DNA from: Petroclostridium xylanilyticum
GTDB lineage: Bacteria; Bacillota; Clostridia; SK-Y3
Length of the DNA stretch: 64,000 bases
Reading direction: 5' to 3'
Assembly: GCF_002252565.1 (NCBI RefSeq)
Contig: NZ_NPML01000007.1
Coordinates: 1-64,000 of the forward strand
The position numbers and the translations under genes were made by a program. Of this stretch, positions 25,351-31,015 are shown in pieces (within the stretch, counting starts at the first letter, position 1; the number at the start of each line of letters is the position of its first letter). Below the pieces are notes generated by a model that worked only from the letters and a program-made list of their open reading frames with translations, had not been told where the DNA came from and did not search any database.

Positions 25351-26133
25351 TCATTTCCGCATGGATAGATTAAATGGCTGTTTTACACATTCTGCCACAG
25401 TAATAATCTGTTCATCATAAGAAGGCTGGATTGTTTTTCCGGGAGGAACAATTAAAAATCTGGACTCATCCCAATTCCCATTTAAAAAGTCAACCAGTAG
25501 TGATTTATCTCCCGTCACTTCATCATAATTCCATTTTAAAAATTCGGCACATTGTTTAGTATATTCTTTATGACCGGTATTGTTAAATTCAGGCCAGTCA
25601 ATAAATGTACACCATTGGTATTCATTAAACCAGTTTTGCTCCATCTCCATGAGGTAATCTGCATTTTCTTCCCCGTATTTTTCAATATATTGGTTTCGGA
25701 TAAAATCATATCTTTCTTTTCCTGGCATAGGAGTATTCTCAAGCCAGCCTGCAGAATACCAGTACACCCCTTTATGAGAGTCGAAATATTCTTTATATCT
25801 TTCTTTAGATCCTAATAGGAGTGTAATACAGTCATGAGCTTTGGGGACTACAATTTTATATTTTTTAGAGGAAAGACCGATAATTCCATTGCTGCACAGT
25901 GCGTAGCCCAATAAAATAGCGTCAAAATCTTCATTCATACAGGATTTATAAGTATACCAATCATCACCCCGATCTATTTTATCGATTTCATGTTGTACCC
26001 TTTCCCGTAATAAATTAGGCTCATCGTGAAAACCTTGCCTCATATAAGTAATATCGATAAAGTTCTTCGACTTTGCTGCAATCAAACTTAGCTCTCGAAA
26101 TAATACTTTACAAGCAATAACCTTTAACCTCAC
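25351..26133 (-). CDS. DUF1638 domain protein
   Basis: 260 residues. The central motifs GYALCSNGIIGL and PKAHDCITLLLGSKERY are the signature of DUF1638, whose members occur in anaerobes and methanogens, in several cases beside corrinoid or methyltransferase genes. No such genes are nearby here. Cysteines (C8, C65, C85, C102 by approximate count) might bind metal or a cofactor, but no function is established. It is the second gene of a minus-strand pair with the DUF3189 gene, 125 bases apart. Confidence 0.78.
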   Translation of the reverse strand: MRLKVIACKVLFRELSLIAAKSKNFIDITYMRQGFHDEPNLLRERVQHEIDKIDRGDDWYTYKSCMNEDFDAILLGYALCSNGIIGLSSKKYKIVVPKAHDCITLLLGSKERYKEYFDSHKGVYWYSAGWLENTPMPGKERYDFIRNQYIEKYGEENADYLMEMEQNWFNEYQWCTFIDWPEFNNTGHKEYTKQCAEFLKWNYDEVTGDKSLLVDFLNGNWDESRFLIVPPGKTIQPSYDEQIITVAECVKQPFNLSMRK

Positions 26134-26258
26134 ATTATCACTTCGCTTTGCTGCATTAAGATTAAGATATTGGATAATATATTCTATATAATTTGAAAGA
26201 ATCCTTTTATAATAGTAAAAGAAAATATTATTTTACAAAAAATCATAAAATTTCTCAT

Positions 26259-26717
26259 CTATTCTTTGTAAAGACGATATTTTACATTTTTAACCACTTC
26301 TACAATATTGTAATATGCATCCAATGAACCTTTTATTACAATTGGTCTTCCAATAGCAACCATGCCACACCCTCTGGATAGAAAACCTCCAATTTTCATT
26401 AAAAGGTTCACATTAGTATGAATATTAATTAATTGTAAATTTCCTTTATTTCCTAAAATGTCATTTAAGCTGTTTAATGCCTGGATGACGATATTTGCAC
26501 TAAAGCGCCTTCCCATAGTGCAAATGACTGTTCCATGATCATCAATTCCCACAACCTTGATTAAACCCCATTCTTTTTTACAAGAGGTATCAAAATTTGT
26601 TTTTTCTATAATTTCTTTTGGGTTGGGAATTCTGTCAGAAGGCAATATTCCTAAATGAATATGGGCAGCCAGAACAGAGGAATGCGATCCTCCTGAACAA
26701 TGATATATGATAATCAT
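26259..26717 (-). CDS. DUF3189 family protein
   Basis: 152 residues. The N-terminus MIIIYHCSGGSHSSVLAAHIHLG matches the start of DUF3189 proteins of Clostridia and other sporeformers. The YHC..GGSHSS segment looks like a phosphate- or nucleotide-binding turn, and a second cysteine lies in SRGCGMVAIGRP. Function is unknown. It faces the PLP enzyme gene across a 165-base divergent gap. Confidence 0.75.
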   Translation of the reverse strand: MIIIYHCSGGSHSSVLAAHIHLGILPSDRIPNPKEIIEKTNFDTSCKKEWGLIKVVGIDDHGTVICTMGRRFSANIVIQALNSLNDILGNKGNLQLINIHTNVNLLMKIGGFLSRGCGMVAIGRPIVIKGSLDAYYNIVEVVKNVKYRLYKE

Positions 26718-26821
26718 TCTAATCCTCCATAGTGCGATTTTTAATTATTAAAAATAGTAGTCTTTATTGTTTGCTGATTTATATTCATTTATTCAGGCTT
26801 TTTTCCTAAGATATTTACACG

Positions 26822-26850
26822 TTGCTTAACATGCATACTTATGTTAAAAT
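26822..26850 (+). promoter_or_regulatory. Promoter of the YnbB-type gene
   Basis: TTGCTT (26822-26827), a 17-base spacer and TAAAAT (26845-26850) lie about 30 bases before the start codon. Confidence 0.45.
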
Positions 26851-26882
26851 ATACGCATCACTAGAAAGGATGATCTATTTAT

Positions 26883-28175
26883 ATGCAAAGAGATATAGCT
26901 GATTTGTTATTTCAAGAATTTAATATAAGCAAAAAGACTTATATTTTATCAAAAGAAGTAGAAGAGCAAGTTGCGGATAAATTCAGCGAAATAGATTACA
27001 TAAGCCGGTTCAACCAGTATAAAGTATTAAAAGCTTTTCAAAACAATCATATTAGTGACAGTCATTTTGTAGAAACAACAGGATATGGTTATGACGATTT
27101 AGGCAGAGATGCTTTAGATGCTGTTTATGCAGAAACTTTTAGAAGTGAAGATGCATTAGTCAGGCATCATATTGTTTCCGGCACCCACGCTCTTGCACTA
27201 TGCTTATATGGGGTTTTAAGGCCGGGAGACACATTGATTTCAGTTACAGGAAAACCCTATGACACCTTGGAAGAAGTAATAGGTATAAGGGGGAAAAATA
27301 ATGGATCTTTGAGAGAACTGGGTATAAAATACCAACAGGTAGACCTTACACCCATGGGAACAATAAACTATGATGAAATAAGTGCTTCTATTGATAAAAA
27401 TACAAAAGTAGCAATGATTCAGAGATCTAAGGGATATGATTGGAGACCTTCTTTAACGGTAAAAGAAATAGAGAGGTTAATTCATACCATAAAAACTATT
27501 AATCCTGATACAATATGTTTGGTAGACAACTGTTATGGTGAATTTGTTGAAACCATTGAACCTACAGAAGTAGGAGCTGACCTGGTTGCCGGATCGCTGA
27601 TAAAAAACCCTGGTGGCGGTTTGGCTCCTACAGGTGGATATATTGCGGGGAAGAAAGAGTATATAAAATTAGCTGCTTACCGTCTGACATCACCAGGAAT
27701 AGGGAAGAAGTGTGGGGCATCCCTGGGGATGAATCGACACCTCTTTCAAGGATTTTTTATGGCTCCGCATATTGTTTCACAAAGTTTGAAAGCAGCCATA
27801 TTCTGTGCGGCGCTGTTTGAAAGGCTTGGCTTTGAGGTATGTCCTAAATCTGATGAAATCAGGACAGATATTATCCAGGCAATAAAATTTAATAACCCGG
27901 AACTGCTGATAAGCTTTTGCCAGGGAATACAAAAGGGTGCTCCCATCGATTCCTTTGTAAGACCTCAACCATGGGATATGCCGGGTTACGACTCTCAGGT
28001 TATTATGGCTGCGGGAGCATTTATCCAGGGATCTTCAATTGAATTAAGTGCAGATGCTCCAATCAAACCTCCTTATATTGCCTATATGCAAGGAGGGCTA
28101 ATCTGGAACCATGCTAAATTGGGAATTATCATTGCACTTCAAGATATGATGGACAAAGGTTTATTAAAAATATAA
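26883..28175 (+). CDS. ynbB: PLP-dependent YnbB / aluminium-resistance family protein
   Basis: 430 residues. HHIVSGTHALALCLYGVLRPGD, DNCYGEFVE and the likely PLP lysine in GSLIKNPGGGLAPTGGY identify the Cys/Met-metabolism-type fold I enzymes annotated as methionine gamma-lyase family or aluminium resistance protein (B. subtilis YnbB). Its reaction is not established. The ribosome binding site GAAAGGA is about 12 bases from ATG. In many Firmicutes this gene lies near hfq, miaA and lexA, as here. Confidence 0.88.
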   Translation: MQRDIADLLFQEFNISKKTYILSKEVEEQVADKFSEIDYISRFNQYKVLKAFQNNHISDSHFVETTGYGYDDLGRDALDAVYAETFRSEDALVRHHIVSGTHALALCLYGVLRPGDTLISVTGKPYDTLEEVIGIRGKNNGSLRELGIKYQQVDLTPMGTINYDEISASIDKNTKVAMIQRSKGYDWRPSLTVKEIERLIHTIKTINPDTICLVDNCYGEFVETIEPTEVGADLVAGSLIKNPGGGLAPTGGYIAGKKEYIKLAAYRLTSPGIGKKCGASLGMNRHLFQGFFMAPHIVSQSLKAAIFCAALFERLGFEVCPKSDEIRTDIIQAIKFNNPELLISFCQGIQKGAPIDSFVRPQPWDMPGYDSQVIMAAGAFIQGSSIELSADAPIKPPYIAYMQGGLIWNHAKLGIIIALQDMMDKGLLKI

Positions 28176-28192
28176 ATATACTTAATAACTGC

Positions 28193-28222
28193 AAGAAGGT
28201 ACTGCACGGACAGTACCTTCTT
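28193..28222. terminator. Bidirectional terminator between ynbB and lexA
   Basis: AAGAAGGTACTG (28193-28204) pairs with CAGTACCTTCTT (28211-28222) over a 6-base loop. It lies between two convergent genes, with T-rich or A-rich flanks on each side. Confidence 0.85.
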
Positions 28223-28239
28223 TATATAATGCAATTGAA

Positions 28240-28875
28240 CTAAAGTTTTCTAAAAACACCAATAACTTTTCCAAGTATTGAAACTTCCTTAACAATGATA
28301 GGATCCATAAATTGATTTTCAGGTTGCAATCTAAAATATCCGTTTTCTTTATAGAACCTTTTTACTGTTGCCTCGTCTTCAATTAGTGCTACAACAATAT
28401 CACCATTATTGGCAGTATTTTGTTTTCTTATAATCACTAAATCACCATCTAATATTCCGGCATCAACCATGCTTTCTCCGCTTACACGAAGCATAAACAC
28501 ATCACTGTTCTGGGCTAATTCAACAGGTAAAGGAAAAGTATCTTCAATATTTTCCACGGCTAAAATAGGTTGCCCGGCAGTAACTTTTCCTAATATCGGA
28601 ACCTGAATTAGTTCCCTGGCAGGCATAATATTGCTCAATGAAGGATTTTTACGAGCTTTGTTTTCTATAATTCTCAAAGCTCTGGGTTTAGAAGCATCTT
28701 TATGCAACAAGCCCTTTTTTTCTAATCTTTCCAAATAACCATGTACTGTAGATGTAGATTTCAATCCGACAGCACTGCATATTTCCCTGACAGAAGGGGG
28801 ATATCCTTTTTCCTCAATTTGTTCATTTATAAAATCCAATATCATCTGCTGCTTTTCAGTCAATTTTTTTTGCAT
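28240..28875 (-). CDS. lexA: SOS repressor LexA
   Basis: 211 residues. The winged helix-turn-helix covers residues 1-70 ([26 protein letters not shown]). The self-cleavage site is A100-G101 (KVTAGQP), with serine S135 (SGESM) and lysine K172 (EATVKRF). LexA represses DNA-damage genes and cuts itself when RecA is active. Its own promoter (TTGATA, 17 bases, TATAAT on the minus strand) carries a LexA-like palindrome at 28914-28927, and the divergent yneA-like gene has further boxes, so it probably controls both. Confidence 0.97.
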
Positions 28876-28913
28876 AAATCAGGACACCTTTCCCATTAAA
28901 TTTTAATGTCATT

Positions 28914-29021
28914 ATAACATATGTTACACAATATATCAAACGAATGTTCGTAAAAATTTTAAAAATTTATTGACTTAGAACAAATGTTCTGGTACAATTA
29001 ACCACATAGAACATCTGTTCG
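28914..29021. promoter_or_regulatory. Divergent lexA/yneA control region with LexA boxes
   Basis: Three boxes fit GAAC-N4-GTTC: 28937-28950 (one mismatch, CAAAC), 28977-28990 (AGAACAAATGTTCT) and 29008-29021 (AGAACATCTGTTCG). A fourth palindrome at 28914-28927 keeps the core AACATATGTT in the lexA promoter. The plus-strand promoter TTGACT (28970-28975), 17 bases, TACAAT (28993-28998) has one box in its spacer and another just downstream of its -10. Confidence 0.88.
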
Positions 29022-29042
29022 TTTTGGTGGGGAGGAAGAAAT

Positions 29043-29354
29043 ATGAGAACTAAAACGCAGCTCAAGCTGAAGATTATTAATAAAAAGCGCTTTGTAACAT
29101 TTATTACTTCAATTTTAATCCTTTCAGTCATTCTAACTGTTATGTTTTTTGCCCAAACATCCGTTCGAGGTCAAGCTGAAAGTAATTATATTTATGTACA
29201 TATTGCTACTGGAGATACATTATGGGATATAGCATTACGTTATAATCAAAACCATAAGGATATTAGAAATTTTATTAATGAAATCATGCTGGAAAATAAT
29301 ATGGAAACTGCAATGCTCACTCAAGGGCAAATACTTAGAGTTCCTGTTAAATAA
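29043..29354 (+). CDS. yneA: YneA-like LysM cell-division suppressor
   Basis: 103 residues: a basic N-terminus, one membrane segment (~17-37) and a C-terminal LysM domain (YIYVHIATGDTLWDIALRYN). Size, architecture, LexA-controlled divergent position and neighbour match B. subtilis YneA, which delays division during the SOS response from the cell surface. The ribosome binding site GGGGAGG lies 6-12 bases before ATG. Sequence similarity outside LysM cannot be judged by eye. Confidence 0.8.
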   Translation: MRTKTQLKLKIINKKRFVTFITSILILSVILTVMFFAQTSVRGQAESNYIYVHIATGDTLWDIALRYNQNHKDIRNFINEIMLENNMETAMLTQGQILRVPVK

Positions 29355-29446
29355 CTAGTTACTTTTTTATGATTGTATGATATACTAAAAGAAATATATG
29401 GTTAAAATAATACTATTGATGTTATGATTAGAGTTGGAGGAAAGCA

Positions 29447-29623
29447 ATGCCACGTAAGGAATGTATATTAGAAGATAGATTGTGTACCAACTGCGGAGAT
29501 TGTAATATGTGTGATATAGATAGCAGTAAAATTTGTACCAGCTGCGGAAAATGTATTGATGATGATGCGGATTACAGAGCTATCGGAATTGATGACATAT
29601 TAGAATTGGAAGTAAATAAATAG
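29447..29623 (+). CDS. Small cysteine-rich protein, probable Fe-S binding
   Basis: 58 residues (start MPRKECILEDRLCTNCGDC), a gene too short for most callers. Eight cysteines are spaced C6, C13-x2-C16-x2-C19-x2-C22, C30-x2-C33-x2-C36, like a compact two-cluster ferredoxin or a zinc ribbon; the C-terminal 20 residues are acidic. TTGGAGG lies 6 bases before ATG 29447, and the frame ends at TAG 29621. I do not recognise a named family. Its site directly after the SOS genes and before a tyrosine recombinase is noteworthy. Confidence 0.78.
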   Translation: MPRKECILEDRLCTNCGDCNMCDIDSSKICTSCGKCIDDDADYRAIGIDDILELEVNK

Positions 29624-29648
29624 GGAAGGGAAGAGCGACAATGTATCC

Positions 29649-29684
29649 GGAAGGGGAAAGGGAGTTATTATTCCCCTTCCTTTA
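29649..29684. terminator. Terminator between the cysteine-rich gene and the recombinase
   Basis: GGAAGGGGAA (29649-29658) pairs with TTCCCCTTCC (29671-29680), followed by TTTATT. It serves two convergent genes and overlaps the last codons of the recombinase. Confidence 0.7.
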
Positions 29685-30648
29685 TTATGTTTGCCAACGG
29701 ATTTTGGTCTACGGCATTTCGCAATTGTTCATTATCTACATGCGTATAAATTTCGGTGGTGGATAAGTTTTCATGGCCCAAAATTTCCTGTAATGCTCTT
29801 ATGTCAACTCCACCGTGTTTATACATTAGTGTGGCGGCAGTATGACGCAACTTATGAGTTGAATATTTTTCAGGATCCAGCCCGGCTTGTTTTATATACT
29901 TCTTTACAATATATTGAACAGTTTTATTGCTAATTCTTTGTTTTCTCTCACTTAGAAAAAGGGCATTTTTATCTTTAACGCCATTGACAGGACGTACACG
30001 CAAATAGTTATTGATAGCATTAATACAAGCCTTATTAAGGTATATTGTTCTTTCCTTATTGCCTTTGCCAACAACTGTTAAAGTATCATTTTTAATTTTA
30101 TTTAAGTTTATACTTACAAGTTCAGAAAGCCGTAAGCCACAATTTAAAAATAACGTCAGTATCGCGTAATCTCTTTCTTTATATTCACCATTTATTGCAT
30201 ATAGTAATTGTTTACTTTCTTCAAGGTTCAAATATCTGGGCATGCGCTTTTGAATTTTTGGAGATTCTAGTTCTTTAGCAGGATTAATATCTATGAGCTT
30301 TGCTTTTGTATTAAGGTAACTAAAAAATGATTTTATACTGGCAACCTTTCTGGCCCGTGAGTTTGCATTATTGCCACGTTTACGATTAACATAAGCCATA
30401 TATTCGTATAAATCGCTTAAAGTTATTGTTTTAATTAACTCAACATTTATATCATCAATTGGTATTTTTTCAAAATCAGCATCTTTATCAACATAACCTT
30501 TATGTATCTTCATAAATCTGAAAAATGTCCTTAAATCAAAAAAGTATTCTTTTGTTGTATTTTTTGATTTGCCTTTAATTGTTTCCATATAACTTAGATA
30601 GTCTCGAATAACTTGCGGCGCTTCACTAAAATCAATCATAACTTCCAC
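29668..30648 (-). CDS. Tyrosine recombinase (XerC/XerD-like)
   Basis: 326 residues. An N-terminal SAM-like core-binding domain spans ~10-110. The catalytic domain has the first arginine in NCGLRLSELV, HKLRHTAATLMYKHG (HxxR) and a second histidine in LGHENLSTTEIYTHV with the nucleophile tyrosine Y. All residues needed for strand exchange are present. Stand-alone Xer-type enzymes resolve chromosome dimers or act on mobile DNA; being next to lexA without phage genes suggests a chromosomal role. A perfect inverted repeat lies right before it. Confidence 0.9.
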   Translation of the reverse strand: MEVMIDFSEAPQVIRDYLSYMETIKGKSKNTTKEYFFDLRTFFRFMKIHKGYVDKDADFEKIPIDDINVELIKTITLSDLYEYMAYVNRKRGNNANSRARKVASIKSFFSYLNTKAKLIDINPAKELESPKIQKRMPRYLNLEESKQLLYAINGEYKERDYAILTLFLNCGLRLSELVSINLNKIKNDTLTVVGKGNKERTIYLNKACINAINNYLRVRPVNGVKDKNALFLSERKQRISNKTVQYIVKKYIKQAGLDPEKYSTHKLRHTAATLMYKHGGVDIRALQEILGHENLSTTEIYTHVDNEQLRNAVDQNPLANIIKEGE

Positions 30649-30651
30649 TCC

Positions 30652-30683
30652 TGATTATACAAAATTTTTATTTTGTATAATCA
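30652..30683. repeat. Perfect 13-bp inverted repeat upstream of the recombinase
   Basis: TGATTATACAAAA (30652-30664) and TTTTGTATAATCA (30671-30683) are separated by six bases. Both arms contain a TATAAT box reading outward. It abuts the recombinase ribosome binding site, so it could be an operator, a promoter element or a recombination site. Confidence 0.7.
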
Positions 30684-30823
30684 TATCACAAATTTTTACC
30701 AGTGTCCAGACTTTTCTATTTTGATTTCTATTTTAATTCTAATTTGGGAAAAATAATTTGGGTGATGTTTTTATGATAATAAGACTAGGCTATTTTGTTG
30801 CGATCATAAAAGCAATATTGGAG

Positions 30824-30866
30824 ATAAAAAATAATCACCCTGCCTCGCTACTGCGGGTGATTATTT
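30824..30866 (-). terminator. Terminator after tRNA-Glu
   Basis: On the minus strand AAATAATCACCC pairs with GGGTGATTATTT (plus strand 30855-30866 and 30829-30840) and is followed by a T-run. Confidence 0.8.
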
Positions 30867-30886
30867 CATTTAAAAATTTTATATAA

Positions 30887-30962
30887 TGGTGACCCTAAGG
30901 GGATTCGAACCCCTGTTACCGCCGTGAGAGGGCGGCGTCCTAGGCCACTAGACGATAGGGCC
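30887..30962 (-). tRNA. tRNA-Glu (anticodon CTC)
   Basis: The minus strand gives a full cloverleaf. The acceptor GGCCCTA pairs with TAGGGTC, the anticodon stem is CCGCC/GGCGG with loop CTCTCAC, the T-loop is GGTTCGAATCC, and the CCA end is encoded (30887-30889). Anticodon CTC reads GAG (glutamate). Length with CCA is 76 bases. Confidence 0.96.
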
Positions 30963-30986
30963 AAGTTCTAATGTGGTGCAGGTAAT

Positions 30987-31015
30987 ATTATACACCACAT
31001 TTTGTCACTTGTAAA
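30987..31015 (-). promoter_or_regulatory. Promoter of tRNA-Glu
   Basis: On the minus strand TTTACA (31015-31010), a 17-base spacer and TATAAT (30992-30987) lie about 25 bases before the tRNA. An inverted repeat GTGGTG/CACCAC overlaps it. Confidence 0.65.

Follow-up and report, generated by a model that had tools for sequence, protein, structure and literature searches.

Why does a tyrosine recombinase gene carry a long palindrome directly in front of its start: is it a site on which the recombinase acts, an operator, a promoter element, or a hairpin of the messenger RNA? This question is raised by a locus of Petroclostridium xylanilyticum, whose neighbours within its GTDB class include named Clostridia. 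The window considered here is the whole stretch of DNA that was analysed, 64,000 nt in length. A first-pass annotation had proposed a Xer-type recombination site, with an operator or a simple promoter palindrome as alternatives. In the absence of any binding or recombination data, we hold it very likely that the palindrome at 30652-30683 is a dif-equivalent, i.e., the single terminus site at which the adjacent Xer-family recombinase works alone. The proposed Xer-type reading is supported by conservation of the dyad at orthologues, by covariation between protein residues and site bases, and by location at the terminus, while binding and recombination themselves are inferred. The dif role, the single recombinase and the extent of the system within the class go beyond what that annotation proposed. 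The features on which the argument rests are the following:

25446..31000, no strand: GC-skew turning point (replication terminus), with a flat maximum of cumulative G-C at about 25.4-31 kb and a fall afterwards
29668..30639, minus strand: Xer-family tyrosine recombinase, 323 aa, likely start ATG at 30639; inferred to read bases through positions 31 (Glu) and 239 (Lys)
30648..30652, minus strand: Shine-Dalgarno AGGAG of the recombinase, touching the palindrome (from sequence)
30652..30683, no strand: predicted palindromic Xer/dif-type site, with 14-bp perfect arms and an asymmetric 4-bp centre (TTTT on the plus strand, AAAA on the gene strand); conserved at orthologues, with which it covaries
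30654..30664, plus strand: left 11-bp arm ATTATACAAAA, with A at a5, C at a6 and T at a8, inferred to be a half-site bound by the recombinase; the 11-6-11 division of the 28-bp site is inferred from known dif sites
30665..30670, no strand: inferred 6-bp central region TTTTTA between cleavage points, from Xer/dif geometry
30671..30681, minus strand: right 11-bp arm, mirror of the left, from the symmetry of the 28-bp site

The palindrome (TGATTATACAAAATTTTTATTTTGTATAATCA) has the two 13-bp arms and 6-bp centre that the annotation had described, and its symmetry extends 1 bp further inward, giving 14-bp perfect arms around a 4-bp centre. Its reported position flush with the ribosome-binding site of the recombinase was accurate as well (the first base of AGGAG is palindrome base 30652), as was the presence in both arms of a TATAAT reading outward. 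On the gene strand, a single base separates this hexamer from the Shine-Dalgarno, from which we infer that it lies too near to serve as the gene's own -10 box. The search for other copies that had been recommended found the palindrome to be single in the 3.86-Mb assembly (41 contigs) at up to 3 mismatches. How unusual is such a structure? Perfect inverted repeats with arms of at least 13 and a loop of at most 10 were absent from all five first-order Markov versions of the window, against 10 matches at six places in the real window, so that symmetry alone says little: a palindrome of such size is by itself unremarkable here, and what is remarkable is its conservation. Between the recombinase and a likely pyrE, so labelled from open reading frame inspection only, stand a tRNA-Glu (CTC) and, downstream of it, a terminator-like inverted repeat of 12 bp (window positions 30829-30866 and 30887-30962).

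The recombinase belongs to PF00589, and its best solved relative is Escherichia coli XerD (137.2 bits, as compared with 64.9 bits for XerH). Among NCBIfam models the best is XerC, with 237 bits for a curated cut-off of 335.15, followed by XerD (210.9 for a cut-off of 329.6), so the protein passes neither of the two. Residues R170, K192, K195, H262, R265, H289 and Y298 do not change across eight aligned orthologues, and R170, K192 or K195, H262, R265, H289 and Y298 are the likely catalytic residues, assigned by motif. The protein thus qualifies as a Xer-family tyrosine recombinase with intact catalytic residues, inasmuch as these assigned roles hold. Orthologues were detected at E<=1e-75 in 186 of 293 sampled genomes of the class, the other 107 lacking one at this cut-off. 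The neighbours of the gene in the window are lexA and yneA. Control of the recombinase gene by LexA as part of the SOS response was considered and rejected, since the only two LexA-box matches (GAAC-N4-GTTC) of the window, 28978-28989 and 29009-29020, sit between lexA and yneA and not at this gene; at least two such matches occur in 15 of 100 shuffles.

Is the palindrome conserved in front of these orthologues? Its absence there would have refuted the first reading of the locus, and this did not happen. Direct inspection of orthologue upstream regions revealed dyads with different arms at the same place. The fetched regions were then scanned for the core AAATNNNNATTT flanked by eight positions of which at least six are paired, a rule that inflates pairing figures, in 166 distinct genomes (not 169, as the named records N44x, N39 and N40 duplicate G genomes). 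A dyad was found in 115 of the 166, and within 250 nt upstream of the gene in 92, whereas Markov versions of the same regions, which are resamplings and not exact shuffles, gave on average 4.15 sites per set, and 0.05 near the gene. Despite the inflation due to the 6-of-8 rule, few dyads of this kind thus arise by chance. With the addition of further sites found by pattern, a mirror-symmetric dyad, mostly with core AAATNNNNATTT, is present in 143 of the 166 distinct orthologue-bearing genomes; no site was found in the other 23, some of which had short loci.

The symmetry of these sites can be followed position by position in a training set obtained from 116 dyads, seven of which were dropped for lack of C at a6, leaving 109 rows that correspond to 108 distinct genomes after removal of duplicates (per-pair figures use the 109). 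The invariant C at a6 (109/109) is consequently a product of selection; six of the genomes concerned re-entered with the same dyad, and G205 with another, in a further set of 35. Arm pairs are complementary in 844 of 872 cases, and 85 of the 109 rows are perfect from a5 to a12 (8, 7 and 6 pairs in 85, 20 and 4 rows, respectively), over 28 arm types and 33 family labels, "named" counting as one. Pairing reaches 91% at a8 and 98% at a9, as compared with 34% and 30% if the two arms were independent, and the arms are unequal at a8 in two genera of one family (9 of 12 f8 rows). In contrast to the 7.2 cases expected, the 4-bp centre is self-complementary in none of 63 family-centre combinations, as a site needing direction would require. 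Two sister genomes, L194 (G042:C1:1470833) and L105 (G069:C32:5577), have the same arms and similar flanks, with a centre reading GAAC in one and GTTC in the other relative to the gene, so that the centre has been either flipped or mutated twice.

With a strict degenerate pattern of 28 bases, 139 of the 293 class genomes give a match, 128 of them a single one, as compared with 15 genomes for the reversed pattern; these figures come from a complete table of counts. Some matches lack mirror symmetry (e.g., G047, G119, G155, G168, G199, G217 and G300) and are probably due to chance; those of G217 and G199 were treated as such on this ground. A 3-mismatch match in G290 was also excluded, even though it is compatible with both residue-base rules described below. 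One genome holds two similar sites 5.5 kb apart (G280:C9:12847 and 18343), a pattern expected of an element integrated at dif. At G027:C21:158889 and G116:C1:2061795, additional but weaker dyads are found no more than a few hundred bases from genes, or gene fragments, of other tyrosine recombinases, which perhaps belong to mobile elements.

The distance between site and gene varies widely. In 87 of the 108 distinct cases, the site lies within 250 nt upstream of the recombinase gene, often touching the Shine-Dalgarno. In G042 and G069 it stands 1.2 kb beyond the end of the gene, in other genomes 1-9 kb to either side, and in a few cases much further away (14.4 kb in G003, 15.7 kb in G247, 59.2 kb in G129, 64.5 kb in G183 and 66.4 kb in G030). 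Because it can be downstream of the gene, or up to about 66 kb from it, the site is not simply a leader hairpin or an operator.

If not bound to the gene, to what is the site bound? GC skew ranges from +0.15 to +0.19 in the first 22 kb of the window; it is about zero between 22 and 30 kb and takes values of -0.07 to -0.24 beyond 30 kb, and long open reading frames occupy the plus strand up to 20.7 kb and mostly the minus strand beyond 28 kb. Of the 65 loci that extend 4 kb or more to each side of the site, 56 show a flip of the skew from plus to minus at the site; the nine without such a flip comprise six plus/plus, two minus/minus and one minus/plus, with G116, G022 and G040 among them. The median distance from skew maximum to site is 1.04 kb, against 3.1 kb for random positions of the same loci, and the maximum falls within 1 kb of the site in 31 of the 65, against 17% for random positions. 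In G200, for example, it lies 49 bp from the site, with the gene 2 kb off. On the scale of whole chromosomes, the gene is found at 0.408-0.499 of the chromosome from dnaA in 21 of 21 chromosomes (20 in one contig, one in two), and the site at 0.413-0.497 in all 11 for which a site was entered. Genes for XerD, intended as a negative control for terminus location, proved to be terminus-biased themselves (mean 0.431, range 0.344-0.487, 12 genomes), which makes gene position alone weak evidence; the skew maximum at the site carries more weight. One dyad site of about 28 bp per chromosome, at the terminus, is what a single-recombinase Xer/dif system calls for, and this criterion is fulfilled here.

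The link between site and enzyme comes from their joint variation. All sufficiently variable protein columns were scanned against six arm positions in 56 family-arm representatives; the top column is residue 31 for a5 (z 21) and residue 239 for a8 (z 16), the latter being also first for a9. With A at a5, residue 31 is Glu; with G or T it is Ala, Gly or Val (once Gln). At residue 239, Arg or Glu accompanies C at a8, and Lys accompanies T or G, or in five genomes A, while Asn, Ala, Pro, Ser and Asp all go with A. The correspondences of Glu31 with A at a5, and of Arg239 or Glu239 with C at a8, have no exception in the 109 training rows (108 genomes) or in the 35 further genomes. These rules were scored on one arm only (the left in gene orientation for the training set, either strand for the others), and six of the 35 further sites (G115, G044, G213, G196, G256 and G021) were first found with patterns favouring A at a5. 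On a tree built without these columns, parsimony counts nine switches per trait, base and residue always changing jointly. As the covariation came out of a scan of many columns, and the genomes are related, the unit of evidence is these nine switches and not 143 events.

By a motif alignment, residues 31 and 239 are presumably the counterparts of Cre residues 43 and 259. According to PMC7438526, the preference of the phage recombinases Cre and Dre for loxP or rox is set by three residues of helices B and J, namely 43, 259 and 263. Similarly, PMC5241119 describes how helices of the XerH N-domain and a helix of its C-domain enter the major groove, the C-domain helix at the outer part of the site. 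Since residues 31 and 239 covary with arm bases and would fall in regions matching these contacts, the recombinase itself very probably reads the site, the contact being inferred without binding data. It is also strongly indicated, on comparative sequence evidence and again without binding data, that a single recombinase would recognize both arms, the mirror arms following residues 31 and 239 of one protein.

Could the palindrome rather serve the expression of the gene, or act as a switch? An operator of the recombinase gene, bound by the recombinase or by some other DNA-binding protein, would account for the sites close upstream and against the Shine-Dalgarno, and autorepression by bound recombinase is a quite plausible side effect. 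Such an operator leaves unexplained the sites 1-2 kb downstream or 2-66 kb off, the skew maximum at the site itself even where the gene is 2 kb away, and the covariation with the recombinase. We regard this possibility as very improbable, and the simple promoter palindrome also put forward in the annotation fails on the same distant and downstream sites. The same objections meet an mRNA leader hairpin or thermosensor beside the ribosome-binding site, even with a strong hairpin adjoining the Shine-Dalgarno in the transcript (-16.2 kcal/mol, z -3.95) and a slight excess of sense-strand G.T mismatches (9, against 6 A.C/C.A). Six of these nine mismatches come from one family and one position, and sites outside any leader show the same symmetry, so that a leader structure is hardly credible as an explanation, with a side role of the stable hairpin in translation remaining possible. 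An invertible switch, in which the recombinase flips the DNA between two such sites, has a precedent in tyrosine recombinases such as RecV of Clostridioides difficile, and the opposite centres of G042 and G069 would suit it. Inversion needs two sites, however, and no second inverted copy exists in the source genome at up to 3 mismatches, the strict pattern being likewise single in 128 of the 139 genomes with a match; membership among inversion switches is not met, and we give this explanation next to no credence.

More serious, if still unlikely, is an ordinary two-recombinase dif in a clostridial form, with the recombinase as the XerC partner and a retained XerD on the other arm. The source genome encodes, outside the window, a separate true XerD (374.3 bits, G000:C4:218315-219181), and it is one of the 11 genomes out of 32 in which XerD exceeds the curated cut-off. 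XerC is the top NCBIfam model for the recombinase, the arms resemble known Xer arms, and those of the two genera of family f8 are slightly unequal. Against this, the score of the recombinase remains under the XerC cut-off, and both arms change together, tracking the same two residues of one protein. In addition, four of the 32 genomes (G091, G199, G206 and G220) have no XerD-model match at E<=1e-20 other than the recombinase, and a dyad site was found in three of these four. Bacillus-type dif, searched by a consensus with up to 3 mismatches allowed, hardly occurs in the class sample (5 of 293 genomes, all at 3 mismatches, versus 60 of 149 genomes of a phylum sample); at the same tolerance it was found neither in the four class members of the phylum sample nor in the source genome. 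A diverged two-recombinase dif could evade this pattern, and given the retention of XerD in 11 of the 32 genomes, a two-recombinase role is not fully excluded. A 46-bp palindrome beyond the end of the recombinase gene in L015 (G059), just before position 1501, contains TTTACATAATATATATTATGTAAA, which seems to resemble two canonical XerD arms; the palindrome is possibly a terminator, or else the remnant of a former dif.

How does a one-recombinase dif compare with the systems already known? It shares with XerCD/dif of Bacillus and most bacteria the 28-bp 11-6-11 layout, the terminus, the single copy and Xer-like arms; XerCD/dif differs in its two recombinases, its two different arms and, for the Bacillus type, a sequence pattern scarcely seen in the class. 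The clostridial site does not qualify as such a dif, no canonical dif with a conserved XerD arm being found in G000 at up to 3 mismatches of the Bacillus-type consensus. Cre/loxP and Dre/rox combine mirror arms, an asymmetric centre and one recombinase, and are in this respect like the clostridial site; unlike it, they are phage systems with an 8-bp spacer and 13-bp arms, and are not chromosomal. XerS/difSL of streptococci and lactococci also relies on one recombinase whose gene adjoins the site, with an inner half-site ..CCGAAAA. In contrast, difSL is 31 bp long with unequal and imperfect arms, and XerS has 356 aa (both points from PMC5357621). The clostridial site is a symmetric dyad and not a 31-bp unequal one, and the recombinase scores 153 bits for a XerS cut-off of 267, so that this membership is not met either. 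XerH/difH of Helicobacter and Campylobacter, again a one-recombinase system, has in common with the clostridial site a variable distance to the gene, difH lying 66-282 bp away in some species and tens of kilobases in others, near the skew shift (PMC2731167). The difH arms are, on the other hand, unequal (AGTTATGAAAA / AAAAGTTTGA) and more alike between species in the passage of the published table that was compared, from which the clostridial site differs. Together with the XerH score, which is lower than that of XerD, this rules out membership. XerL/dif of Legionellales resembles the clostridial site in its one recombinase, its uninterrupted inverted-repeat arms of 10-12 bp and its terminus location. 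It belongs to another lineage, its recombinase gene is more than 400 kb from dif in L. pneumophila, and the part of PMC9765430 from which these points come describes no arm-residue covariation. The clostridial site is set apart from XerS, XerH and XerL by its near-perfect symmetry, combined with arms that drift from lineage to lineage in keeping with a two-residue code, and by its wide distribution in the class.

The XerS, XerH and XerL systems are described, in PMC5357621 and PMC9765430, with a comparable mechanism of dimer resolution, and a model for the clostridial site can be inferred by analogy with known Xer/dif systems. Each site would be occupied by two recombinase monomers, one on either of its mirror-image 11-bp arms; the inner arm would be read at a5 by residue 31 of an N-terminal helix, and the outer arm at a8/a9 by residue 239 of a C-terminal helix; for both residues covariation is observed, and helix and contact are inferred. 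When sister chromosomes are fused into a dimer by homologous recombination, the two copies of the site would synapse, probably under the control of FtsK/SpoIIIE, and strand exchange across the asymmetric centre would resolve the dimer. Gene and site would form a linked module, yet one free to separate, and this linkage would be the reason why the site usually stands at the ribosome-binding site of the recombinase.

The resolution of chromosome dimers is basic to the cell cycle. We consider it probable, with less assurance than for the site itself, that a large part of the class Clostridia has swapped XerCD/dif for a one-recombinase system with co-evolving site and enzyme. About nine target changes at each of the arm positions a5 and a8, each with a change of residue 31 or 239 and at the places of the engineered Cre/Dre switches, would then amount to a readable Xer recognition code, and the retained XerD would have lost its dif role. 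The review PMC5357621 counts Firmicutes as users of XerCD, streptococci and lactococci excepted, a picture that a one-recombinase dif over many clostridial families would change if true. Such a system might also account for the failure, in C. perfringens and C. beijerinckii, of a dif search seeded from Bacillus, which its authors put down to low GC (PMC3025954). No description of a clostridial one-recombinase dif system occurs among the literature matches listed, and six of the site sequences, searched as text, are absent from the searched literature; the clostridial dif predictions of Kono 2011 (PMC3025954) may include some of these sites. The site provides mapped termini and likely integration sites for phages and tools, and its natural enzyme-target pairs, with a simple two-residue code, are directly testable and usable for recombinase engineering. 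Which Xer proteins does a clostridium need? This becomes a plain question of gene removal.

Similar sites also occur in viral contigs. One exact arm pair of the Clostridium type was searched there and gave no match. In contrast, exact sites with TTATACAAAAT arms are present in 13 viral stretches (L245-L257), two of them shorter than 400 bases, possibly reflecting phages that use or copy the host site or dif machinery, integration not being shown. Only L246 of the 13 also holds a host-type recombinase by tblastn. Tailed-phage genes were recognized in all six stretches whose proteins were scanned (L247, L249, L250, L252, L253 and L257), and L253 has an integrase of its own.
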